Origin: Chloroflexota bacterium
Lineage (GTDB): Bacteria; Chloroflexota; Limnocylindria; Limnocylindrales; CSP1-4
Direction of reading: 5' to 3'
NCBI GenBank assembly: GCA_003156975.1
Contig: PMIE01000071.1
Coordinates: 25,881 to 65,481 of the forward strand
Length of the DNA stretch: 39,601 nucleotides
Under the pieces are notes generated by a model. The model did no database searches. It saw only the letters and a list, made by a program, of their open reading frames with translations, and was not told the DNA's origin. A program made the translations under genes and the position numbers. Below, one piece after another: positions 6,463 through 17,417 of the stretch; positions within the stretch are counted from its first letter, which is position 1; every line of letters begins with the position of its first letter.

Positions 6463-6489
6463 ATGGACGGGCGTGGCAGCGTTTGGGCG

Positions 6490-6527
6490 TTGTCATCGTT
6501 GACAATGGAGTCGGATGACTGTATAAG
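6490..6527 (+). promoter_or_regulatory. Promoter of the FrcB-like operon with an overlapping LacI operator
   Basis: TTGTCATCGTTGACAA at 6490-6505 is a near-perfect palindrome sharing TGTCAWCGTTGACA with the operator at 5077-5096. Its right half holds TTGACA (6499-6504), followed after exactly 17 bases by TATAAG (6522-6527), a strong sigma-70-type promoter. The start codon is at 6670, giving a leader of about 135 bases. Confidence 0.85.
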
Positions 6528-6669
6528 CCTTCTTGGACTTTCCCAGAGGGTCCCCGGGGTCCAGGCGTGCGCCCCTTTGGCCAATGAGCGCCGGTGTCCT
6601 GGCCGCGGGTTATCGGAGGGAAGGTTGCCTCGTGGCCATTTGGCCTTGCGTCAACCCAGAGGAGTGGAG

Positions 6670-7746
6670 ATGCGACGTACATTCATAGCCCCGTTCCTGA
6701 TCCTTGGGCTCATCGTGGGCGGCTGCAGCAGCAGCAGCACGGCTACAAGCGCAGCGCCCGGAACGCCCGCCACGGGGGCGACCCCGGCCCCCGCGACCAG
6801 CGCTGCCGGACAGCAGTTCATTTTCGGCCTCGTCACCAAGACGGAGACCAACCCCTTCTTCGTCAAGATGAAGGAAGGCGCTCAGGCGAAGGCCACCGAG
6901 CTTGGCGTCAAGCTGATGACGGGCGCCGGCGCCAAGGACGGTGACAACGCCGGCCAGGTCACAGCGATCGAGAACATGGTCAACGCCGGGGCCAAGGGCA
7001 TCCTGATCACCCCCAGCGACACGAAAGCCATCGTGCCGACCATCGCGAAGTATCGCGCTCAGGGCATCCTCTTCATCGCTCTCGACACCGCCACCGACCC
7101 GCAGAGCGCGGTCGACGCACTGTTTGCCACCAACAACTTCAATGCCGGGCTCCTGATCGGTCAGTGGGCTAAGGGCAAGATGGCCGGCAAGACCCCGGTC
7201 ATCGCCACCCTCGACCTGCAGCCGGGCATCACCGTCGGCGCGCAGCGCCACAACGGCTTCCTGCAGGGCTACGGCCTGATCACCGGCGCCGACCCGAACT
7301 CGAGCGATCTCCAGACCGCTTCGGTAGTCGTCTGCTCTCAGGACACTCATGGTGACCAGACCGAAGGTCAGACCGCCATGGAGAATTGCCTGACCAAGAA
7401 CCCGAACATCAACCTCGTCTACACCATCAACGAGCCTGCCGCGTTCGGTGCCTACACGGCCATCAAGAGCGCCGGCAAGGACAAGAACATCACCATCGTT
7501 TCCGTCGATGGTGGGTGCCAGGGCGTCCAGGGCGTCGTGGACGGCAAGATCGCCGCTACATCTCAGCAGTACCCGCTCAAGATGGCCTCCATGGGCATCC
7601 AGGCGATGTACGACTGGGCCAAGGGCGGCGCGAAGCCGAGTGGCTACACCGACACCGGCGTGACGCTCATCACTGACCAGACGCAAACCGGAGTCGACAG
7701 CAAGGACAGCGCCTACGGGACTGCCAACTGCTGGGGCACCAAGTAG
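6670..7746 (+). CDS. Sugar ABC importer substrate-binding lipoprotein (FrcB-like)
   Basis: A 358-residue extracellular sugar-binding protein. The signal peptide ends in a lipobox (LIVGGC), so Cys19 should be lipidated, and a Ser/Thr/Ala/Pro-rich linker to about residue 47 follows. The binding domain is of the RbsB type (Peripla_BP_4). The stretches GLVTKTETNPFFVKMKEGAQ, AIENMVNAGAKGILITPSD and DGGCQGVQGVV are like the fructose-binding protein FrcB as I remember it. ATG 6670 has ggagtggag just upstream; the frame is open further but the signal peptide fixes the start. It is the first gene of a binding-protein/permease/ATPase operon in the frcBCA order. Fructose is the best guess; ribose or mannose are alternatives. 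Confidence 0.85.
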   Translation: MRRTFIAPFLILGLIVGGCSSSSTATSAAPGTPATGATPAPATSAAGQQFIFGLVTKTETNPFFVKMKEGAQAKATELGVKLMTGAGAKDGDNAGQVTAIENMVNAGAKGILITPSDTKAIVPTIAKYRAQGILFIALDTATDPQSAVDALFATNNFNAGLLIGQWAKGKMAGKTPVIATLDLQPGITVGAQRHNGFLQGYGLITGADPNSSDLQTASVVVCSQDTHGDQTEGQTAMENCLTKNPNINLVYTINEPAAFGAYTAIKSAGKDKNITIVSVDGGCQGVQGVVDGKIAATSQQYPLKMASMGIQAMYDWAKGGAKPSGYTDTGVTLITDQTQTGVDSKDSAYGTANCWGTK

Positions 7747-7760
7747 GTATTTGACCGGGA

Positions 7761-7791
7761 AGGTGACGGCGGATCCAAGCCGCCGTCACCT
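7761..7791 (+). other. Intercistronic stem-loop after the binding-protein gene
   Basis: AGGTGACGGCGG, loop ATCCAAG, CCGCCGTCACCT: a perfect 12-bp stem starting 14 bases after the stop codon and 20 bases before the permease GTG. No T-run follows. Such hairpins commonly protect the upstream message and keep the binding protein more abundant than the permease. Confidence 0.7.
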
Positions 7792-7811
7792 CCGGTTTCG
7801 GAGGAGGGCTC

Positions 7812-8807
7812 GTGGAAGCAGCTATCGGCAGGGTTCCGGGGGTTCGGTCGGGTAGTCTCAGGAAGCTACTGGGCTCGCAGATCATCGGCCCCCTTGCGGC
7901 GCTGGTGATCGCGATCATCTTCTTCACCACTCAGAGCTCCGTGTTCCTCACGGGCCATAACTTCTCTCTGATCCTCCAGCAGGTCATGGTCGTCGGCACC
8001 CTGGCCATCGGCCAGACCCTGGTGATTCTCACCGCCGGCATCGACCTGTCCTGCTCGTGGATCATGGCCCTTTCCAGTGTCCTGATGACCGGACTGGCAA
8101 CTCGGGCCGGGTTCGATCCCTTGGTCGCCATCCTCGCCGGAGTGCTCGTCGGAATGGCGTTCGGCGTTCTCAACGGCTGGCTGGTCACGGCAATCAGACT
8201 GCCCCCGTTCATCGTGACCCTGGGCGTTCTGAGCATCACTTCGGCCCTTGTCCACCTCTACACGACCGAGACGCTCAACAACCTGCCGCCCATCATGACG
8301 GTCCTCGGAAATACGTTCAATGTCGGCGGAACTGACATCACGTATGGCTCCGTGGTGATGCTGCTGCTGTACGCCGTGGTCTGGTTCGTCCTCCGCTCCA
8401 CTACTGCCGGTCGGTCCGTGTACGCGGTCGGTGACAACCCCGAGGCCGCCAGGCTCGCCGGCATCAACGTCAATCGCGTCCTGCTGGGCGTGTACGCGAC
8501 AGCGGCTCTCTTCTACTCGATTGCCGGCCTCCTTCTCGTGGCGAGAACGCAGGTTGGAGATCCGAACGCCGGCGGCGCAGCGACCCAAGACAACCTCGCC
8601 GCGATCACGGCGGTGGTGCTGGGCGGGACCAGCCTCTTCGGCGGGCGTGGGTTGATCCTGGGGACCCTCATCGGTGCTCTGATCGTCGGCATATTCCGCA
8701 ACGGGCTGCAGCTGATGGGCGTGGAGTCGAACACCCAGACGCTCGTCACCGGCATGCTGATCCTCCTCGCCGTGGCCGTCGACACTCTGTCGCACCGCAA
8801 CCGCTAG
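7812..8807 (+). CDS. Sugar ABC importer permease (FrcC/RbsC-like)
   Basis: A 331-residue integral membrane permease of the BPD_transp_2 family, used by ribose/fructose/galactose-type importers. Hydrophobic helices run from about residue 26 (GPLAALVIAIIFF) to the end. The conserved segments GQTLVILTAGIDLS (about residues 71-84) and ITAVVLGGTSLFGGRG (about 263-278) are family hallmarks; the latter includes the loop that contacts the ATPase. The GTG start has a strong ggaggaggg site. It lies between the binding protein and the ATPase and is probably a homodimer in the membrane. Confidence 0.9.
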   Translation: MEAAIGRVPGVRSGSLRKLLGSQIIGPLAALVIAIIFFTTQSSVFLTGHNFSLILQQVMVVGTLAIGQTLVILTAGIDLSCSWIMALSSVLMTGLATRAGFDPLVAILAGVLVGMAFGVLNGWLVTAIRLPPFIVTLGVLSITSALVHLYTTETLNNLPPIMTVLGNTFNVGGTDITYGSVVMLLLYAVVWFVLRSTTAGRSVYAVGDNPEAARLAGINVNRVLLGVYATAALFYSIAGLLLVARTQVGDPNAGGAATQDNLAAITAVVLGGTSLFGGRGLILGTLIGALIVGIFRNGLQLMGVESNTQTLVTGMLILLAVAVDTLSHRNR

Positions 8808-8829
8808 ACGAGCAGGAGGCGTGAACACA

Positions 8830-10335
8830 ATGAGCACATCAGTGTCCGATGGTGTCGCCCTGCTCGAGATGCGGGACATCGGCAAGTCATTCCCGGGCGT
8901 TCGAGCTCTGGAGGGCGTCCATCTCAGCGTCAGGGCGGGTCAGGTCCACGCGCTATTGGGGGAGAACGGCGCTGGCAAGTCCACCCTCATCAAGATCCTC
9001 TCCGGCGCCTACGCGAAAGACCAAGGTCAGATCTTCTTCGAGGGCCGGCCAGTCGAGATCCACAGCCCGCACGATGCCCAAATGCTGGGAATCTCGACCA
9101 TCTACCAGGAATTCAACCTCGCCAACAATCTGACTGTGGCCGAGAACATCTTCCTCGGCCACCTTCCCCGCAGGGGCGGCATCGTCGATTGGAAGACCGC
9201 CAGGGCGCGCTCACAGGCGATTCTGGACACGCTGGGAGCCACGTTCTCGGTCGACGCACCGGTCTCGAGTCTCTCGATCGCCGGTCAGCAGCTGGTGGAA
9301 ATCGCCAAGTCCCTCAACCGCAAGACTCGGGTCCTGATCATGGACGAGCCATCGGCATTGCTCGGCGACAAGGATCTCGAGCACCTATTCAAGGTCGTTC
9401 ACTCGCTCCAGGCCCAGGGTATCGGGTTGATCTACATCTCCCACCGCCTCAAGGAGATCTTCGAGGTTGCCGACGAGGTGACGGTCCTCAAGGACGGCCG
9501 GTATGTCGCCACCAGGAACGTGTCGGACGTTTCTATGGACGAACTCGTAAAGTTGATGATCGGACGCGACCTCAAAGACGTGTATCCAGAACGGCGAGTG
9601 GACCCAGGCGAGGTTCTCCTCGACGTCAAGGGTCTGTCTCAGCCACGGCTCGTGCGGGACGTGTCGTTCCAGCTTCGTGCCGGAGAGATCGTCGGGTTCG
9701 CGGGGATTGTGGGCTCCGGGCGGACCGAATTGGCGCGGGCCATCTTCGGCGCAGACCGGCATTCGGGCACCATGGAGATCTCCGGAAAGCCCTTCAATCC
9801 CAAATCCCCGATTGACGCGATCAATCGGGGAATGGCCTTCGTGACCGAGGATCGAAAGAGCCAGGGCCTCTTCCTGCAGCTGAGCGTGAAGATCAACACG
9901 ACAATCTCCAGCCTGAAGCGATTGTGCCGCTTCGGCATCATCCAGGCCGCGAAGGAGCGGGCTCTCGTCCTGAACCTGATTCGGAACCTTGCGATCAAGA
10001 CTCCGAGCCCGGAGTTCCAGGTAGTCAACATGAGCGGCGGAAATCAGCAGAAGGTCGTGCTGGCGCGCTGGCTCAGCTTGGGGACGCGCATATTCATCCT
10101 GGACGAGCCCACACGTGGCGTCGACGTCGGCAGCAAGTCCGAGATCTACCAGATCATGGACCGGCTGACGCATGAGGGTGCGGGGATCATCATGATTTCA
10201 TCGGAGCTCCCCGAGATTCTGGGCATGAGCGACCGGATCATGGTTATGCGTCAGGGCAAGCTCGTGAAGGAACTCTCGAACTCCGAGGCCAGCGAAGAGG
10301 TCATCATGAGCTTCTGCTCGTACGTGTCGGCCTGA
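8830..10335 (+). CDS. Sugar ABC importer ATPase with two nucleotide-binding domains (FrcA/RbsA-like)
   Basis: A 501-residue tandem ATPase. The first domain has Walker A GENGAGKST, a signature-like segment LSIAGQQLVEIAKSL and Walker B VLIMDEPSALLG. The second has a degenerate Walker A (GIVGSGRTELA, with Arg replacing the Lys), a good signature NMSGGNQQKVVLARWL and IFILDEPTRGVDVGSK. This asymmetry is normal for RbsA/FrcA/MglA-type subunits. I choose ATG 8830 because AGGAGG at 8814-8819 is ten bases upstream of it but only one base from the alternative GTG at 8821. The gene closes the operon; a large stem-loop follows at 10353-10403. Confidence 0.92.
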   Translation: MSTSVSDGVALLEMRDIGKSFPGVRALEGVHLSVRAGQVHALLGENGAGKSTLIKILSGAYAKDQGQIFFEGRPVEIHSPHDAQMLGISTIYQEFNLANNLTVAENIFLGHLPRRGGIVDWKTARARSQAILDTLGATFSVDAPVSSLSIAGQQLVEIAKSLNRKTRVLIMDEPSALLGDKDLEHLFKVVHSLQAQGIGLIYISHRLKEIFEVADEVTVLKDGRYVATRNVSDVSMDELVKLMIGRDLKDVYPERRVDPGEVLLDVKGLSQPRLVRDVSFQLRAGEIVGFAGIVGSGRTELARAIFGADRHSGTMEISGKPFNPKSPIDAINRGMAFVTEDRKSQGLFLQLSVKINTTISSLKRLCRFGIIQAAKERALVLNLIRNLAIKTPSPEFQVVNMSGGNQQKVVLARWLSLGTRIFILDEPTRGVDVGSKSEIYQIMDRLTHEGAGIIMISSELPEILGMSDRIMVMRQGKLVKELSNSEASEEVIMSFCSYVSA

Positions 10336-10426: not shown

Positions 10427-11494
10427 TCAGGTTCTGACACCGTCGAATGCTTCGCCGGCTGAGCGGTCGACATCGGCTATGTCTCGTGGCGCACTGCCGG
10501 TCGTCCGGCGGACGACCAATTCCACCGGGAGGTCCTTTCGTCTCGGTCCGAGACGTGGCCCGGCCATCTCGTCGAGCAGCATTCTGACGGCCTGCCGTCC
10601 GGACTCGCCCAGGGGCTGATGGATGGTCGTCAAGCCCAGGTACTCGGCCGCCTCGATGTCGTCGTAGCCCACTACCGAGAGGTCATCCGGCACGGCAAGG
10701 CCCAGAGCGCTCGCTGCCTCGAGCACGCCGATCGCCTGCGTGTCGCTGGCGCAGACAGTCGCCGTTGGACGGTTCCGGCTCCGCAGCAGGCCGCGCGCCA
10801 GCTCGCGCGCTGCGTCTCTCGAGTGATCACCCAGCGCGACGAGTTCGGGCCGGAAGCTGACGCCACGGCTGAGGATCTCCCGTCGCAGGCCCCACAGACG
10901 GAGTCTGCTCGACGAGAAGCCCCAGGGGGACCTGGGGAAATCGCCGATGAAGGAGATGCCTTCGTGGCCCGCATCGAGAAGATGGCGCGCAGCGAGTCGG
11001 CCGCCCTGAATGTCGTTGCACACGATCCTGGGGAGTGTTGGCGAATGGCTGTCGAGCAGTACTGTGGGAATGCCCGTAGCCCGAAGGCGCTCCGTCTCGT
11101 ACCGATGGAGCGGTATCGAGACAATGATCAGGCCATCCACGCGGCCGCTGCGTGAGAGCTCGTGGATACGCTTGTCCCTGTGGGCTGGAGATTCCACGTT
11201 GTAGACGAGCATGTCGTACTCAGTCGAAGCCAGCTCGAGCTCGATTCCGGCCAAGCGCGTTACGACCGAGGGGCGCGTCATGAAGGGAACGACCACACCG
11301 ACGCACCAGGTTCTTCCGGTCGACAACCGTCGAGCGGCTGCCGACGGCGCGTAGTCGAGGCTGCGGATCGCTTCCTCGACGCGAGACCGAGTGGACGGAT
11401 CGACTCTCGGGCTGTCATTCAGGACTCTGCTTACGGTCTGCCTGCTGACGCCCGCGCGGCGCGCTACATCCCTGATCGTGACGCTCTGGCCCAA
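10427..11494 (-). CDS. LacI-family regulator of the disaccharide importer
   Basis: A 355-residue LacI regulator. VTIRDVARRAGVSRQTVSRVLND (split here only as a motif) at the N-terminus is a full helix-turn-helix, and the rest is the sugar-binding-protein-like sensor domain with DLSVVGYDDIEAAEYLGLTT near its end. The frame is open far upstream, but TTG at 11494 is preceded by GGAGG (complement of 11502-11506) at seven bases and starts directly before the helix-turn-helix, so I take it as the start. The gene is divergent from the type-1 binding protein at 11810. The recognition helix (SRQTV) differs from that of the first LacI (SPKSV), in line with the different palindrome found here (11637-11650). 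Presumed inducer: the disaccharide imported by the neighbouring system. Confidence 0.9.
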   Translation of the reverse strand: MGQSVTIRDVARRAGVSRQTVSRVLNDSPRVDPSTRSRVEEAIRSLDYAPSAAARRLSTGRTWCVGVVVPFMTRPSVVTRLAGIELELASTEYDMLVYNVESPAHRDKRIHELSRSGRVDGLIIVSIPLHRYETERLRATGIPTVLLDSHSPTLPRIVCNDIQGGRLAARHLLDAGHEGISFIGDFPRSPWGFSSSRLRLWGLRREILSRGVSFRPELVALGDHSRDAARELARGLLRSRNRPTATVCASDTQAIGVLEAASALGLAVPDDLSVVGYDDIEAAEYLGLTTIHQPLGESGRQAVRMLLDEMAGPRLGPRRKDLPVELVVRRTTGSAPRDIADVDRSAGEAFDGVRT

Positions 11495-11809
11495 GGCGTG
11501 ACCTCCATCGGATCGGAGTCTATCCGAAGACGTGACGTCCATCTGAACTTGAGACCGCTTCGAGGCCGGTCGAGTACGTTCATTACCTCGCCCAAATCGT
11601 TCCGTGAAGCCTATTGACAGGCTTGATATCGTGGCGTGTGAACGGTCACATCTTCCCGCTTGGACGACTGTCGTCTGGGGCCAGGCCCCGTTCACCTGGG
11701 CCCAGACGGTGGTTGCTCGGTGGGTCGACGCCACCGAGGAGGGTCTTGCCTAGAGGTTGACGCACGCAGCAGCGCTTCGATCCAGACTGCCCAAAGGAGG
11801 AGACGAACA
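11495..11809. promoter_or_regulatory. Divergent promoter region of LacI and the disaccharide importer
   Basis: A 315-base gene-free stretch. TTGACA at 11614-11619 is a likely -35 box toward the importer, but no convincing -10 is spaced 16-18 bases away. TGTGAACGGTCACA at 11637-11650 has perfect 5-bp arms around a central CG and is the best candidate operator for the LacI gene to the left; it would cover the -10 region. A leader hairpin follows at 11672-11708. AAAGGAGG at 11793-11800 is the ribosome site of the next gene. Confidence 0.6.
11672..11708 (+). other. Leader stem-loop before the binding-protein gene
   Basis: CGTCTGGG (11672-11679) pairs perfectly with CCCAGACG (11701-11708), and a smaller GGGG/CCCC stem could form inside. 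It lies about 100 bases before the start codon. No role can be read from sequence. Confidence 0.4.
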
Positions 11810-13204
11810 GTGTTCCTGGCATTCAACAGATCTAGAAAGGTCCTGGGAGGATTGGCGGCCATCGCGCTCGTAGCCAGCGCATGCAGCAGTTCGACGGCGA
11901 CCGCGACCCCGGCCACTTCCCCCACCACGGCCGCTTCGACCGTGGCCTCGGCACCGGCCTCTTCGCCCGCCGCGGGAGCGACCGCCTGCGGTACGGCTCC
12001 GGTGACGCTCAGCGCCTACTTCGAGACCGGCTTCCAGATCCCCTTTAGTGAGACGGCGGAATTCACCAAGGAATTCCCGAACGTAACCTTCAACATCACT
12101 TCGGACCAGTACGCCAACATCTCGACCTCCGCGGCGAGGTTGCTGGCTTCGGACACCCCACCGGACCTCATCCGCCTCCCCACCGTGGTGTCGCTGGTGA
12201 AGGACAAGCTCCTGAAGAACCTCGATAGCTACGCCACCACCTACGGCTGGGACAAGTGGCCGGCTTCCGAGCTTCTCCAGAACCGCGTCAGCGCGACCGG
12301 CGAGCGCGGATCCGGCTCCCTCTATGCGTTCGGCTTGAACTACAGCATGACCGGCGTCTTCTACAACAAGAAGCTGGCCACCCAGATCGGCATGACCACG
12401 CCTCCGACGACGGTGGCCGATTTCGAAGCCCTGCTGGCCAAGGCCAAGGATGCTGGAATCACGCCGATCATGCAGTGGAACGCTTCCAAGAGCGGCGGCG
12501 GGCTTGTGTTCCCGCTTCAGGATCTCATGGCGTCGTACGGCCCGACCCAGCCGATCAACGACTGGGTCTTCGACAAGGCTGGTGCGACGATCGACACCGC
12601 GGCCAATCTGACCGCCACCCAGCACCTTGAGACGTGGATCAAGAACGGGTACTTCCCGTCTGACGTCAACTCCATTGAGTATGCGGACGCCAACACCCGC
12701 TTCACCTCGGGCAAGGCGCTCTTCCTCTTCAACGGTGACTGGTCGAACGCCGACATGGACAAGAATGCGGCAGGTAACGTCGGCTTCTTCGTCTTCCCGT
12801 CCGCCACGGCTGGTGGCTCATTCGGCACCATGGCTTCGCCGCTCCAATATGGTATTGCGGCGAGTGCCAAGCACGCCGACTGCGCAGCCTTCTTCTTCAA
12901 TTGGGTCGCGACCAACGCGGCCGCCCGCCAGATCAACGTAACCATCGGCGGCTCGAACCCCGGTGGCCCTGCGGACCTTCCAGTTCCGCCGGCCGCTTCC
13001 GGTTCGGTTACCAACGAGACGCTGGCAGTCGGGCCCGCCATTGCCAAGGCCAACGGCCAGATGGACTTCATCGCCAACGCGACTGGATCCATTTATGCGT
13101 CTGGCTGGACGCCCGAGCTCCAGAAGATGGTGGGTGGTAAGGAAACGGCCGCCGGCCTTCTCAAGGCCGTCCAGGCCGAGTACGTGAAGGAACAGAACCA
13201 GTAA
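11810..13204 (+). CDS. Type-1 sugar ABC importer substrate-binding lipoprotein
   Basis: A 464-residue extracellular solute-binding protein, family 1 (the MalE/MsmE group), which binds di- and oligosaccharides. The lipobox LVASAC puts the lipidated Cys at residue 25, followed by a Ser/Thr/Ala/Pro linker. The domain begins VTLSAYFETGFQIPFSE, and FAFGLNYSMTGVFYNKKL-type and GKALFLFNGDW segments are typical of the family. GTG 11810 has AAAGGAGG nine bases upstream. The TAA stop overlaps the ATG of the first permease, so the three importer genes are tightly coupled. No ATPase gene is in the cluster; such importers often share an MsmK-like ATPase encoded elsewhere. Sucrose is the likely ligand, inferred from the phosphorylase at 15948. 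Confidence 0.88.
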   Translation: MFLAFNRSRKVLGGLAAIALVASACSSSTATATPATSPTTAASTVASAPASSPAAGATACGTAPVTLSAYFETGFQIPFSETAEFTKEFPNVTFNITSDQYANISTSAARLLASDTPPDLIRLPTVVSLVKDKLLKNLDSYATTYGWDKWPASELLQNRVSATGERGSGSLYAFGLNYSMTGVFYNKKLATQIGMTTPPTTVADFEALLAKAKDAGITPIMQWNASKSGGGLVFPLQDLMASYGPTQPINDWVFDKAGATIDTAANLTATQHLETWIKNGYFPSDVNSIEYADANTRFTSGKALFLFNGDWSNADMDKNAAGNVGFFVFPSATAGGSFGTMASPLQYGIAASAKHADCAAFFFNWVATNAAARQINVTIGGSNPGGPADLPVPPAASGSVTNETLAVGPAIAKANGQMDFIANATGSIYASGWTPELQKMVGGKETAAGLLKAVQAEYVKEQNQ

Positions 13205-14160
13205 TGAATGCCGCTGACAGATCGATGCCTGAGACCAGTGCTCAGACCGACGGTCAGCGGCGGTCCCTGCGGACCCTCCCGTTCGGGAAGGTCCGCAGGG
13301 ATACCCTGCTCGGCTGGCTGTTTGTGCTGCCTGCGCTCGCCGTATATGGCGTGTTCGTACTGTTCCCAGTCGCCATGACCGTCAACTACTCGCTATACCG
13401 CTGGGACGGCTTCAACGTCCCTAAGTGGGTCGGTCTGGACAACTACAAGACAGTGCTCACAGACCCCGAACTGGTCAACACGCTCTTCAACGCATTCCGG
13501 TTGATATTCTTCTTCACCGTAATCCCGGTAGTTCTCGGACTCGTCGTGGCTGCCGTGATTCGGGGAAGCGCCACAGGCAAACTGGGCCACCTCGCCCGAA
13601 CGGTTCTGTTCCTCCCGCAAGTCATCCCTCTCGTTGCCGCGGGCATCGTGTGGACCGTGGTCCTATCGCTGAATGGCATCGCCAATCAGTTTCTGACCGC
13701 GATTGGGCTCAAAGGAATCACTCAAGCGTGGCTCGGCTCCTTCGATTGGGCCCTGGCGGCAGTGGGCATGATCGGGGCATGGGTGCTGCTCGGACTCTGC
13801 ACTCTCCTGCTACTCACGGGCATGTCGAAGATCGACAAGGCCCTGTACGAAGCCGCACGCATCGACGGGGCGGGCGCCTTCCGCGAATTCTTCGCGATCA
13901 CTCTCCCGAGCCTCAAGCAGGAGCTGGCGGTCTGCATCACCGTCACGGTCATCGCGGCCCTGAGGAGCTTCGACATCGTTTACGTCAGCACGGCCGGTGG
14001 ACCGGGAAATAGCACGATGGTTCCGGGACTCGAAATTTACGATCTTGCTTTCTTCGGACGCTCGGTGGGCACCGCGTCGGCGCTGGGCGTTGTGCTGATC
14101 CTCATCATCTTGGTTCTCATCCTTCCGATCCAGTGGCTGAGCCGGGAGACAGGCGAATGA
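13204..14160 (+). CDS. Sugar ABC importer permease, MalF type
   Basis: A 318-residue permease with six or so membrane helices from residue ~35 (LLGWLFVLPALAVYGVFVLFP). The cytoplasmic EAA loop reads EAARIDGAGAFREFFAITLP near residue ~220, where the missing ATPase would dock. The ATG shares its first base with the TAA of the binding-protein gene, so translation is coupled. The first 35 codons contain a strong hairpin (13264-13301) that may lower permease output. The gene overlaps the next permease by four bases. Confidence 0.9.
   Translation: MNAADRSMPETSAQTDGQRRSLRTLPFGKVRRDTLLGWLFVLPALAVYGVFVLFPVAMTVNYSLYRWDGFNVPKWVGLDNYKTVLTDPELVNTLFNAFRLIFFFTVIPVVLGLVVAAVIRGSATGKLGHLARTVLFLPQVIPLVAAGIVWTVVLSLNGIANQFLTAIGLKGITQAWLGSFDWALAAVGMIGAWVLLGLCTLLLLTGMSKIDKALYEAARIDGAGAFREFFAITLPSLKQELAVCITVTVIAALRSFDIVYVSTAGGPGNSTMVPGLEIYDLAFFGRSVGTASALGVVLILIILVLILPIQWLSRETGE
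13264..13301 (+). other. Stem-loop inside the first codons of the MalF-type permease
   Basis: TCCCTGCGGACC (13264-13275) pairs perfectly with GGTCCGCAGGGA (13290-13301), with an inner CCCG/CGGG. It lies 60 bases into the coding sequence. In the other importer the corresponding hairpin sits between the genes (7761-7791); here the genes overlap and the hairpin lies inside the permease. Confidence 0.65.
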
Positions 14161-14981
14161 AGATCGACCGCCGCGAACTCTACTCCGGCCGGATAACGCT
14201 CCTCGTGCTCATGGCCCTTACGCTCGTGCCGTTCGTAAGTATGTTCACGACTGCGCTTCACCCATCCGGGTCCTACCCTGTAGGCATCGAATGGCCTGCG
14301 GATCCGCAATGGGGCAATTTTGTTGACGCGTTCAACGTGGCCAACATGGGTGTGCTCCTGGCCTCGAGCCTATTCATCGTGGCTCTTGTGGTGCCCGTGT
14401 CGCTCGTCATTTCCACGATGGCAGGGTTTGCCATCGGACATCTGCGAATCGCGGGCGCCAGTCTTCTATTGCCTTTGTTCTTGTTCGGCCTGACCCTCCC
14501 GTATGAGGCCATCGTTACGCCCCTCTATCAATTTGAGAAGGCGATCGGGATTCTGAATACGCGTCTTGCGATCTCGTTGCCGCTGATCGCCCTGTACATG
14601 CCTTTCGCGGTGTACTGGATGCGAGCTCACTTCGTCAGCGTGCCGCGAGAGATCAGCGAGGCAGCCCGCGTCGACGGGGCCGGGGTGTGGGCCCTGTTCT
14701 TGAAGGTCCATGTTCCCCTGGCTCGACCTGCGATCGCGTCGCTCGGAATCCTGATGACGGTGTGGACCTGGAACCAATTCATCCTCGCGCTCGTGCTCGT
14801 GGAGGATCCGACGCAGCGGACTGCAGCCGGCGCCCTTGGCGCCTTCCAGGGCCACTACGCGACGGACATCCCGTTGCTCTGCGCTGGCTCGCTACTGATC
14901 CTCCTGCCTACTGTCATTGTCTTTGTCGCCTTCCAGCGCCAGGTCATCGCCGCCCTTCTGCAAGGGTCGGTCAAGGGATGA
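14157..14981 (+). CDS. Sugar ABC importer permease, MalG type
   Basis: A 274-residue permease, partner of the MalF-type subunit. It starts at ATG 14157 in a four-base ATGA overlap with the previous gene. The EAA loop is EAARVDGAGVWALFLKVHVP, about 80 residues before the end, as expected for the MalG group. Hydrophobic helices include LVLMALTLVPFVSMFTTAL at the start and LLCAGSLLILLPTVIVFVAF at the end, followed by a short basic tail (GSVKG). It closes the transport part of the operon. Confidence 0.9.
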   Translation: MKIDRRELYSGRITLLVLMALTLVPFVSMFTTALHPSGSYPVGIEWPADPQWGNFVDAFNVANMGVLLASSLFIVALVVPVSLVISTMAGFAIGHLRIAGASLLLPLFLFGLTLPYEAIVTPLYQFEKAIGILNTRLAISLPLIALYMPFAVYWMRAHFVSVPREISEAARVDGAGVWALFLKVHVPLARPAIASLGILMTVWTWNQFILALVLVEDPTQRTAAGALGAFQGHYATDIPLLCAGSLLILLPTVIVFVAFQRQVIAALLQGSVKG

Positions 14982-15279
14982 GGAGCGGTGGTCGAGCCAG
15001 AAGAGCCGTCGATGACAAGACACGCCGATCGGGCGCATGGCTCGGTTTGCGTCCCAGGGGACGTTGCGTCTGCGCTCGTCCAGGGTTGCCGTTTGGGCCT
15101 CGACGCGCCTGCAGCACCCTGTTGAGCTGAGTTCGCACGACGCGGCGAAGACGGGAATGTTCGACGAGCCGGCCCGGCCAGGCAGGACCGCCTGGGGCTG
15201 GCATGGCAGCAGGACGTAGCCACTTGTGGCCCGCGATGGACTTGCGGGACGGCGCCTGCGCGCACGAGATGGAGGAACT
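14982..15279. other. Gene-free stretch between permease and kinase
   Basis: About 300 bases with no convincing coding frame, promoter or strong hairpin. GGAGG at 15271-15275 is the ribosome site of the kinase. The kinase and phosphorylase may be read through from the importer promoter or have a promoter here that I cannot identify. Confidence 0.5.
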
Positions 15280-15957
15280 TTGAAAGGGGATGTCGTTCTC
15301 ATCGAGGAGCATCATCGGAGGGTCGCCACAAGGATTACCCAGGCGATCTCCGGGAGGCTCCAAAGTAAGCAGGGTCGGTTCGCGCTGTCCGTCGCCGGTG
15401 AGTCTGGGTCTGGGAAGTCCGAGACTGCGGCGGCGCTGGCCGAGGAGCTGGGACGCAGACTCTTTCCGGCTGTTGTGCTTGGGCAGGACGACTACTACGT
15501 CCTTCCGCCACGATCAAATGATGCCCGGCGCCGGCAGGACCCCGATTGGCTTGGGCCCCATGCGGAGGTCAGGCTCGATCTCCTGCAGGCCAACGTCGAC
15601 TCTGCTCTGTCCGGCGCATCGTCGATAGAGAAGCCAGTGATCGACTACGACGCCAACAGAGTCGCGACTGAGGAGTTGAGCCTCGAGGGAGTCAAGGTCG
15701 TCATCGCTGAAGGGACCTACGTCTCGCTTCTGCGGAACCTTGACGTGCGAGTGTTCATCGCGAGGAACCGCGTCGATACGCTGGCCCACCGGGAGAAGAG
15801 GAACCGCGGCAGTGAGGTGGGCGACCCCTTTATAGAACGGGTGCTTACTGTTGAACACAAGATCATTGCCGGACACCGTCATCTGGCTGACTTCGTGGTA
15901 ACGCGAGGCTATGACGTGTTCGAGCGCGACTCGGGTGAAGGTCGTTCATGTCGATGA
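15280..15957 (+). CDS. Uridine-kinase-like P-loop kinase, candidate sugar kinase
   Basis: A 225-residue P-loop kinase of the uridine kinase/phosphoribulokinase superfamily. Walker A is GESGSGKS (residues 40-47, Lys46). GQDDYY (68-73) matches the substrate-side Asp-x-Tyr motif of that superfamily, and VVIAEGTY matches its Walker B-like EG motif. A basic lid segment (ARNRVDTLAHREKRNRG) follows. TTG 15280 is the start: GGAGG lies four bases before it and no ATG or GTG suits. The last ten bases overlap the phosphorylase gene. A nucleoside-salvage role does not fit this place between a sugar importer and a sugar phosphorylase. I infer a sugar substrate: sucrose (to sucrose 6'-phosphate), fructose, or another sugar alcohol or acid. 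A related P-loop protein, FrcK, accompanies rhizobial fructose importers (from memory). Confidence 0.75.
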   Translation: MKGDVVLIEEHHRRVATRITQAISGRLQSKQGRFALSVAGESGSGKSETAAALAEELGRRLFPAVVLGQDDYYVLPPRSNDARRRQDPDWLGPHAEVRLDLLQANVDSALSGASSIEKPVIDYDANRVATEELSLEGVKVVIAEGTYVSLLRNLDVRVFIARNRVDTLAHREKRNRGSEVGDPFIERVLTVEHKIIAGHRHLADFVVTRGYDVFERDSGEGRSCR

Positions 15958-17417
15958 AGAACAAGGTGCAATTGATCACCTACGCGGATTCCCTGGGTGG
16001 GAGTCTGCGCCACCTAGAAGAGGCCCTCGACGAATGCTTTCCTCAAATCTTCGAGGGCGGCATCCACATCCTGCCGCCTTTTCCATCGTCCGGAGATCGT
16101 GGCTTTGCACCATTGACATACCTTGAGATCGACCCTGCTCTTGGCACATGGGAAGACATTCGCAGGCTCGGAGATCGCTACGACATCATGCTCGATGTGA
16201 TGGTCAACCACATATCGAGCAGATCCCTGTACTTCCAGGACTTTCTGGAGAACGGGCGCCAGTCCGAATGGGCCGATCTATTCATCACCCTGGACAAGAT
16301 CTGGCCCGACGGCAAGCCAGTCCAGGAGGACATCAACCGGATCTTTCTCAGAAGGCTGCGTCCATATTCAACGTTCACGACCGGGCCAGAGCGCAAGGAA
16401 GTGGAAGTCTGGACAACGTTCGGGAAGGAAGATCCGTCGGAGCAGATCGACATGGACTGGCGGTCCCCACTGTTCCGTCGTTTGATCGCCGGCTTCTTTG
16501 CCAACTTCTCTCGCTATGGGGTCAAGGCCGTCAGGCTCGATGCGGTGGGCTACGTGGTGAAGAAGCTCGGGACGAGTTGCTTCTTCGTTGAACCGGAGAT
16601 CTATGAACTCATGGATTGGGTCCACGCAGTCGCGGACAGCCATGGCATGGAGTTGCTGCCCGAGGTGCATTCCCGTCGCGCCGCGCAGAATTCTCTAGCG
16701 GCACACGGATACTGGATCTACGACTTCATCCTGCCATACCTGGTTCTGGAGGCTCTGTCGATCCGCTCATCGATCCATCTCCGACCGTACCTGGTGTCGC
16801 GGCCGGAACGTCAGGTAACGATGCTCGACTGCCATGATGGAATTCCCGTAAAGCCGGACATGGACGGACTGTACGCTGCGGAGGACGCGCGGCGGCTCGT
16901 GAATTCTTGCCTGGACCGGGGAGCCAACCTGAGCGTGGTCTACTCCGACCAGCACAAGGACCCCAATGGCTTCGATGTCCACCAAATACGTGGAACTTAC
17001 TACTCGCTCCTGGGTTGCGATGACGATGCCTACATCGCCGCACGGGCGATTCAGTTCTTCACGCCAGGAATCCCGCAGGTCTACTACGTGGGGTTACTCG
17101 CAGGGGAGAACGACTTCGAGGCCGTGGCGCGGGACGGCGACGGGCGAGAAATCAATCGTCACAACTTCTCACTCGATGAGATCCGCGCGGCTTCGAAGAA
17201 GGACGTCGTGCGCCGTCTCGTTCGGCTGATCCGTTTGAGGAACTCAAATCCGGCGTTCGACGGCAAATTCGAGGCACTCGACACGTCTCCCTCCCGCCTG
17301 CTCATGAAATGGAGCAAAGATGGAGAGTCATGCGCGCTGGACCTCGACCTGGCGTCCTTCACGTCTGTTGTGGAAGTGGTCCATGGCGACGGCCAGGTCC
17401 AATCGCTCGTTCTCTGA
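15948..17417 (+). CDS. GH13_18 sucrose 6'-phosphate phosphorylase-like enzyme
   Basis: A 489-residue enzyme of the sucrose phosphorylase subfamily. It should split an alpha-glucoside with phosphate, giving glucose 1-phosphate. The start (MKNKVQLITYADSLGG) is the family signature. Catalytic residues are visible: nucleophile Asp198 in VRLDAVGY, acid/base Glu239 in LPEVHS, and Asp297 in CHDGIP. The loop ILPPFPSSGDRGFAPLTY and WTTFGKEDPSEQIDMD match, from memory, the Thermoanaerobacterium enzyme shown to prefer sucrose 6'-phosphate, rather than Bifidobacterium sucrose phosphorylase (ILPFFTPFDGADAGFDP). The products would be glucose 1-phosphate and fructose 6-phosphate. The ATG at 15948 (or 15954) overlaps the kinase gene, so the two are translationally coupled. 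Glucosylglycerate- or glucosylglycerol-type specificity is the alternative. Confidence 0.85.
   Translation: MSMKNKVQLITYADSLGGSLRHLEEALDECFPQIFEGGIHILPPFPSSGDRGFAPLTYLEIDPALGTWEDIRRLGDRYDIMLDVMVNHISSRSLYFQDFLENGRQSEWADLFITLDKIWPDGKPVQEDINRIFLRRLRPYSTFTTGPERKEVEVWTTFGKEDPSEQIDMDWRSPLFRRLIAGFFANFSRYGVKAVRLDAVGYVVKKLGTSCFFVEPEIYELMDWVHAVADSHGMELLPEVHSRRAAQNSLAAHGYWIYDFILPYLVLEALSIRSSIHLRPYLVSRPERQVTMLDCHDGIPVKPDMDGLYAAEDARRLVNSCLDRGANLSVVYSDQHKDPNGFDVHQIRGTYYSLLGCDDDAYIAARAIQFFTPGIPQVYYVGLLAGENDFEAVARDGDGREINRHNFSLDEIRAASKKDVVRRLVRLIRLRNSNPAFDGKFEALDTSPSRLLMKWSKDGESCALDLDLASFTSVVEVVHGDGQVQSLVL

Follow-up and report, generated by a model that had tools for sequence, protein, structure and literature searches.

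A P-loop kinase paired with sucrose 6F-phosphate phosphorylases: a candidate route for sucrose use without a phosphotransferase system

Introduction

How could a bacterium whose sugar arrives unphosphorylated supply a sucrose 6F-phosphate phosphorylase (SPP) with its substrate? This question is raised by a stretch of 39,601 nucleotides from a Chloroflexota bacterium (GenBank assembly GCA_003156975.1, contig PMIE01000071.1, positions 25,881 to 65,481), hereafter called the window. In it a P-loop kinase gene overlaps the gene of a phosphorylase of glycoside hydrolase subfamily GH13_18, and genes of an ATP-binding cassette (ABC) sugar importer lie upstream. The two central genes are:

15280..15957, + strand: stand-alone P-loop kinase of the PRK/uridine-kinase fold, proposed ATP:sucrose 6F-phosphotransferase (from family profiles, alignment of relatives, a fold model and homology to AgaSK)
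15948..17417, + strand: predicted GH13_18 SPP of the TtSPP type (from the match to a solved structure, loop A and the phosphate-holding residues)

A sequence-only reading of the locus had proposed ABC import of sucrose, its 6'-phosphorylation by the kinase and subsequent phosphorolysis. Comparative evidence, namely SPP typing, kinase-SPP pairing and homology to the Ruminococcus gnavus sucrose kinase RgSK, favours this core. In the pathway we propose, the importer would take up free sucrose. The kinase would use ATP to phosphorylate it at the fructosyl 6-OH, as RgSK homology and the strict SPP pairing suggest. The GH13_18 enzyme would then use inorganic phosphate to cleave sucrose 6F-phosphate, yielding glucose 1-phosphate and fructose 6-phosphate, as its TtSPP-type loop and phosphate-binding residues suggest. 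The net cost would be one ATP and both halves would end phosphorylated. We infer import, 6F phosphorylation, phosphorolysis and the physiological direction from sequence, and on this basis the operon very probably encodes a sucrose route via sucrose 6F-phosphate that is independent of the phosphotransferase system (PTS).

Results and discussion

The phosphorylase carries the marks of TtSPP

The best solved relative of the window phosphorylase was the SPP of Thermoanaerobacterium thermosaccharolyticum (TtSPP, 6S9V; 663 bits), followed by the sucrose phosphorylase 7qqj (430 bits). Its loop A, typed by alignment, reads GFDVHQ (DPNGFDVHQIRGTY in the window). This motif, replacing N(L/V)D(I/L/V)YQ, is given as the SPP mark of TtSPP (PMC7178133; here and below, papers are cited from excerpts of their text). 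In crystal 6S9V, Arg134, Tyr201 and His344 hold a sulfate (PMC6720575). TtSPP thus shares with the window phosphorylase both GFDVHQ and these three residues, which align with R135, Y202 and H345. The arginine and the tyrosine also occur in rows with a DIYQ-type loop A, so the histidine is the discriminating residue. The catalytic D198, E239 and D297 are all kept.

Alignment with characterised GH13_18 enzymes had been proposed in the sequence-only reading, and it bore the SPP assignment out: the phosphate-holding residues are present, and so is the published loop A mark, which had not been named. The two loops that had been named fared differently. The WTTFGKEDPSEQ loop (WTTFGK..PSEQ) is 12 residues long and typical of the Tt type, with the PSEQ ending kept in 57 of 61 Tt-type rows; the same loop has 8 residues in all 17 DIYQ-type rows. 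ILPPFPSSGDRGFAP is a weaker mark, because its main difference from the DIYQ-type rows is one residue (P for F). Judging from loop A and the phosphate-binding residues, the window phosphorylase is probably an SPP of the TtSPP type.

Glucosylglycerate phosphorylase was considered as another identity and rejected. The rows assigned to it have YE in loop A and come without the kinase; the name was given to the YE rows on the basis of the glutamate that marks the glucosylglycerate-type loop A (PMC6720575).

Distant homology links the kinase to a proven sucrose kinase

The kinase had been described as a P-loop kinase of uridine-kinase type whose usual substrate would make no sense here, and both parts of this description stood. 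It matches PF00485 with 30.6 bits and its predicted structure (model pLDDT 91.6) has a uridine-kinase-like fold. It differs from the uridine kinase/pantothenate kinase/phosphoribulokinase superfamily in the substrate region and in its curated uridine kinase scores: NYDHPDAFD of uridine kinase is replaced by WLGPHxEV in window-type kinases, and the NCBIfam uridine kinase models are missed with 46.1 bits against a cut-off of 180 (NF004018) and 44.4 against 220.3 (TIGR00235). Uridine kinase identity was rejected on these scores, which lie far below the equivalog cut-offs. A uridine/cytidine kinase placed here incidentally would share the fold and could explain why this is the sole PF00485 match in the window genome, an incomplete assembly. 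Given the scores, the replaced motif and a pairing with SPP over about ten phyla, this explanation is very improbable.

The relationship to a known sucrose kinase came through the GH36-kinase protein of locus L190. Its GH36 part aligns with 2YFN, the crystal of R. gnavus AgaSK, across 720 residues at 1638 bits, with almost every letter identical in the alignment displayed, so L190 appears to encode AgaSK or very nearly so. A profile of 40 window-type kinases scored the kinase domain of L190 at 88.6 bits and that of L191 at 87.1 bits; the best solved chain with the same kinase alignment reached 42.3 bits. The window kinase and the L190 kinase domain agree in 53 of 198 aligned residues (27%). 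By profile and alignment, the window kinase is remotely homologous to an enzyme with demonstrated sucrose kinase activity: the kinase domain of AgaSK alone (RgSK) phosphorylates sucrose in vitro with a Km of 1.0 mM (PMC7688924).

The nearest described system is the Rgaga1 locus of R. gnavus, in which RgSK and RgSPP likewise place a P-loop sucrose kinase, homologous to ours, beside an SPP and an ABC importer. RgSK is fused to a GH36 alpha-galactosidase, whereas the window kinase stands alone and is 27% identical to it. The RgSK partner is a YYQ-type SPP and the reported kinase product carries its phosphate at the glucosyl 6-OH; the window partner is of the Tt type. Clusters that hold both an SPP and a kinase gene have been published before, for R. 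gnavus and for T. thermosaccharolyticum (PMC6521584, PMC7178133). The first of these papers relates SPP activity to the clustered kinase and gives each of the two phosphates a path of its own; the relationship is repeated in PMC7178133. The claim that a P-loop disaccharide kinase would be new did not survive, since RgSK, homologous to the window kinase, has been published as one (PMC7688924). The kind of enzyme is known; what is new is the stand-alone form, the spread over about ten phyla, the kinase-SPP fusions and the genomic case for 6F phosphorylation. No description of a stand-alone kinase of this sort was found in the open-licence literature searched. The AgaSK cluster is said to have spread to only few Firmicutes (PMC7688924), and the kinase-SPP pair reaches much further.

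The kinase is paired with SPP genes across genomes

We scanned GTDB genomes with the window kinase as sole query and analysed the 80 loci listed (at least 80 matches). Loop A was typed by alignment, with the types of L018 and L078 set by hand. Neighbour distances were taken from tblastn; picking of open reading frames (ORFs) missed frames in L011, L015, L018, L022 and L078. A GH13_18 gene was present at 77 of the 80 listed loci, and at 75 it lay directly downstream on the same strand, -3 to 260 bases from the kinase match (median 28). At L060 it lies 3.5 kb beyond the kinase, past importer genes, and at L006 it is on the opposite strand. By type, 59 of the 77 were Tt (GFDVHQ or near variants, such as GFDAHQ in L078) and 16 were Ic (YYQ), while 2 were cut by the contig end before loop A. 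All 75 typable partners were SPP-like. Whether the kinase tracks the 6'-phosphate clade, a check suggested earlier, was answered in the affirmative by these counts.

Identity to the window phosphorylase was 54-71% for the Tt type and 30-35% for the Ic type; identity to the window kinase was 42-70% for kinases with Tt-type partners and 56-64% for those with Ic-type partners. In a quick kinase tree (short search, support by SH-aLRT only, with 35 of the 92 inner branches left open) the Ic-type partner appeared in three separate places, a count of partner changes that leaves out two further ones from contigs cut short (L045, L057). By record labels, the pair is present in about ten phyla, with carriers in Chloroflexota, Bacteroidota, Acidimicrobiales, Bacillota and other groups; cultured carriers include Labilibaculum and Pelolinea submarina. 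The nearest kinase loci among those listed, L001 and L002, are labelled Chloroflexi. Our samples overlap slightly (L002 is G257, of the window's genus; L037 is G248).

Regions were fetched for 12 of 106 genomes with a match to the kinase, chosen by score and match pattern, and an SPP was near the kinase in all 12; the remaining matches of these 106 genomes were mostly weak. A further sample of 87 genomes had the kinase in 5, with neighbours examined in G468 alone. In 301 genomes of the window's phylum we found GH13_18 in 40 (41 places) and the kinase in 3. Thirty of the 41 places could be typed (3 GFDVHQ, 2 (E/A)VD(V/I)HQ and 25 YE), the 11 untyped ones being 28-34% identical to the window phosphorylase. 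The three genomes with GFDVHQ were the same three that carry the kinase.

A family of Clostridia served as a further control. Among its 397 genomes the kinase was found in 30, and 55 genomes held 63 GH13_18 places, all of which were fetched. Of the 29 YYQ-type places, 3 are fused to the kinase and 26 begin at a distance of -37 to 885 bases from it. The kinase thus adjoins or is fused to 29 of 29 YYQ-type genes versus 0 of 34 other GH13_18 genes (Fisher p = 1.3e-18, kinship among genomes ignored). These 34 comprise 17 DIYQ, 3 VVYQ, 8 YE and 6 others; absence of the kinase beside them was judged from the fetched stretches and cross-checked by whole-genome search. The thirtieth kinase genome (G942) holds L192, a kinase fusion in which the contig end truncates the GH13_18 domain; this place is not counted among the 63. 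The kinase of this family is mostly a longer relative; our profile A2 spans both kinds, and its long members were chosen by their match to the kinase, regardless of neighbours. Taken over these samples, the pairing of the kinase with SPP is far beyond chance.

These counts bear on the alternative that the enzyme is a plain sucrose phosphorylase acting on free sucrose, with the kinase phosphorylating the released fructose. The sequence-only reading had kept the kinase on free fructose as its alternative, which now appears much weaker. A fructokinase would help at DIYQ-type genes, yet the kinase is absent at all 17 of them in the Clostridia sample, and it goes with YYQ-type SPPs, of which those assayed act strictly on sucrose 6F-phosphate (PMC6720575). 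In addition, 7 of the 80 listed loci already possess a hexose kinase, a ROK protein encoded directly upstream; one of these, when tested, best matched fructokinase ScrK (269.7 bits against a cut-off of 400). Plain sucrose phosphorylase plus fructokinase was rejected on the pairing with SPP types and the absence beside DIYQ-type genes, and we regard it as improbable.

Two acceptor sites and the fusions point to 6F phosphorylation

The SPP of Ilumatobacter coccineus (IcSPP, 6S9U) has the acceptor site KxxYYQ where the window phosphorylase has GFDVHQ, and is strict for sucrose 6F-phosphate in vitro (PMC6720575). In three Ilumatobacter loci (L011, L018, L019) an orthologue of the window kinase immediately precedes a YYQ-type SPP, and the paired SPP of L011 matches 6S9U at 915 bits. 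In the main text of PMC6720575 the word 'kinase' appears once, unrelated to the Ilumatobacter kinase gene. A single kinase family is joined to SPP acceptor sites of two different builds; what these have in common is sucrose 6F-phosphate, which makes it the expected kinase product.

Kinase and SPP are also found as single proteins, in L151 (789 aa), L194 (815 aa) and L195 (834 aa), with a fourth fusion, L192, cut short by the contig end. GH36-kinase proteins stand ahead of an SPP in L190 (938 aa) and L191 (932 aa). The kinase-SPP fusions, like the strict pairing, speak for a kinase that produces the substrate of its SPP partner, the 6F phosphate.

A further arrangement was observed in L193 (5699-7846), where the kinase forms the C-terminus of a 716-residue ORF; about 420 residues at the start of this ORF match no seed protein.

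If the kinase instead phosphorylated the glucosyl 6-OH, the SPP substrate would have to come from elsewhere. C6 of glucose is indeed stated as the site for the homologue RgAgaSK, in a 2020 paper in which the product was identified by mass spectrometry (PMC7688924). The SPPs studied use the 6F phosphate, and the strict pairing and four kinase-SPP fusions would be odd if the product were a dead end for the partner. Glucosyl phosphorylation is in our view slightly less probable than the fructokinase explanation. The glucose-6 assignment of RgAgaSK reportedly goes back to the 2011 AgaSK paper.

Sugar supply and the PTS

The sequence-only reading had described sucrose use without a PTS. For the window genome this may hold: the assembly (84.7% complete) has no match to PTS_EIIC (PF02378), the one PTS membrane family searched, and no PTS EIIC was found among the operon genes tested, but a match to PTS enzyme I is present. 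In a survey of the genomes of 50 of the 80 listed loci, whose completeness is unstated, 39 had no PTS_EIIC match. Transporters in the 80 fetched stretches were varied: two ABC permease clusters occurred in 26 and 23, a TonB-dependent receptor in 24, a major facilitator superfamily (MFS) transporter in 23 and a sodium symporter in 6, the last three clusters being named from one representative each.

The TtSPP operon holds PTS and phosphofructokinase genes (PMC7178133), whereas the window has an ABC importer and a P-loop kinase. For the SPP substrate, the same paper names the PTS or an unknown environmental or metabolic source. It raises uptake of sucrose 6F-phosphate and calls the phosphofructokinase putative, which would suit import of sucrose 6F-phosphate as such, with our kinase a 6-phosphofructokinase on released fructose 6-phosphate. 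The transporter type varies (ABC, MFS, sodium symporter) while the kinase stays, and the homologue RgSK phosphorylates sucrose (PMC7688924). We give this explanation as little credence as an incidental uridine kinase.

Points against sucrose 6F phosphorylation and exceptional loci

Several observations weigh against a PTS-independent route through sucrose 6F-phosphate. The published RgAgaSK product, with its phosphate on C6 of glucose (PMC7688924), should not serve an SPP. The window kinase is only 27% identical to the AgaSK kinase domain, and its substrate may have drifted. TtSPP also takes free sucrose (PMC7178133), and the window phosphorylase may do so as well. A match to PTS enzyme I was obtained in the window genome, and 11 of the 50 kinase-bearing genomes have a PTS_EIIC match (10 over the cut-off). 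Three of the 80 listed kinase loci (L004, L073, L074) have no GH13_18 gene in the stretch. Conversely, L252 (G858) has a GFDVHQ gene without the P-loop kinase, and in L216 and L217, from the same family as the window, importer genes resembling the window's and a histidine in loop A are retained in genomes without a kinase match.

Some of these loci are of interest in themselves. In L073 (4465-8651) and L074 (4500-8651) the kinase belongs to a run of genes that also encodes an ABC importer, a GT4-like glycosyltransferase, a GH32-like protein and one other protein; family tests on L074 gave GT4, GalT-like and GH32. This gene run is perhaps another route for using sucrose phosphate. In L252 (3995-6438) a PfkB-family kinase lies directly upstream of the GFDVHQ SPP and ABC genes adjoin, so the P-loop kinase was possibly replaced by an unrelated one. 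In L216 (5971-7404) and L217 (5486-7180) loop A reads (E/A)VD(V/I)HQ, and the two loci lend themselves to comparisons of loop A and of kinase loss; our guess is that these phosphorylases use free sucrose. The GH13_18 genes of L248, L249, L250 and L251 have the loop A motifs AVHQ, FDAYQ, KSYQ, RRYQ and QRYQ, with no match to motifs of known specificities.

A paralogous P-loop kinase, 27-32% identical to the window kinase, was seen directly before a ROK kinase in L005 (717-1349), L007 (6276-6986), L013 (4336-4968), L024 (6282-6917) and L031 (6348-6980). In L007, L013, L024 and L031 it is preceded by a HAD-GH65 fusion. From the gene order, this paralogue may be a further kinase for disaccharides, with a GH65 phosphorylase as its partner.

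Layout of the locus

The neighbouring genes of the operon and its surroundings are:

14133..14981, + strand: ABC sugar importer permease 2 (PF00528)
13204..14160, + strand: ABC sugar importer permease 1 (PF00528)
11660..13204, + strand: sugar-binding lipoprotein of the importer (below-cut-off NCBIfam matches to carbohydrate binding proteins)
10427..11734, - strand: divergent LacI-family regulator (PF00356/PF13377)

The kinase has 225 residues, from TTG 15280 to 15957. The mechanical ORF spans 15226-15957, and we place the start at the TTG, as had been proposed, because the relatives share a conserved N-terminus MKGD.... The phosphorylase has 489 residues, from ATG 15948 to 17417, and the ten-base overlap with the kinase gene noted earlier agrees with these coordinates. 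A second ATG at 15954 would shorten the overlap to 4 bases (ATGA), as in several relatives, which show a spacing of -4. The expected ABC-type importer was found as a binding protein and two permeases, with sucrose the presumed cargo. No ATPase gene was seen in this set; the 298-base gap between permease 2 and the kinase is spanned only by mechanical ORFs, which were left outside the search. The lipoprotein ORF had no Pfam match at 1e-3 and its true start probably lies inside the ORF, while the start of the LacI ORF is probably placed too far upstream. Adjoining the LacI gene, at 6463-10335, is a second ABC system of the ribose type (binding protein, permease and double ATPase). The window genome (2.78 Mb in 153 contigs, 84.7% complete) gave no GH32 match and a single GH13_18 match.

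What the pairing would mean

We lean, with confidence somewhat better than even, towards a wider proposal. All kinases of this family, RgAgaSK included, would be ATP:sucrose 6F-phosphotransferases, and bacteria that lack a sugar PTS would share a general pathway for sucrose made up of kinase and SPP, one that has been combined with phosphorylases of two different architectures. On this view the glucosyl-6 product published for RgAgaSK would be a misassignment, and the paralogue on the GH65 side would represent a second kinase for disaccharides following the same design. We hold our confidence at this level because the GH65 part is drawn from gene order alone.

The contradiction between a reported 6-glucosyl product and a neighbouring phosphorylase that requires the 6-fructosyl phosphate becomes resolvable by a short assay. 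Uridine-kinase-like genes adjoining an SPP gene are probably sucrose kinases, which calls for caution in annotation. The kinase would supply the substrate for SPPs outside PTS bacteria, a source left open in print (PMC7178133).
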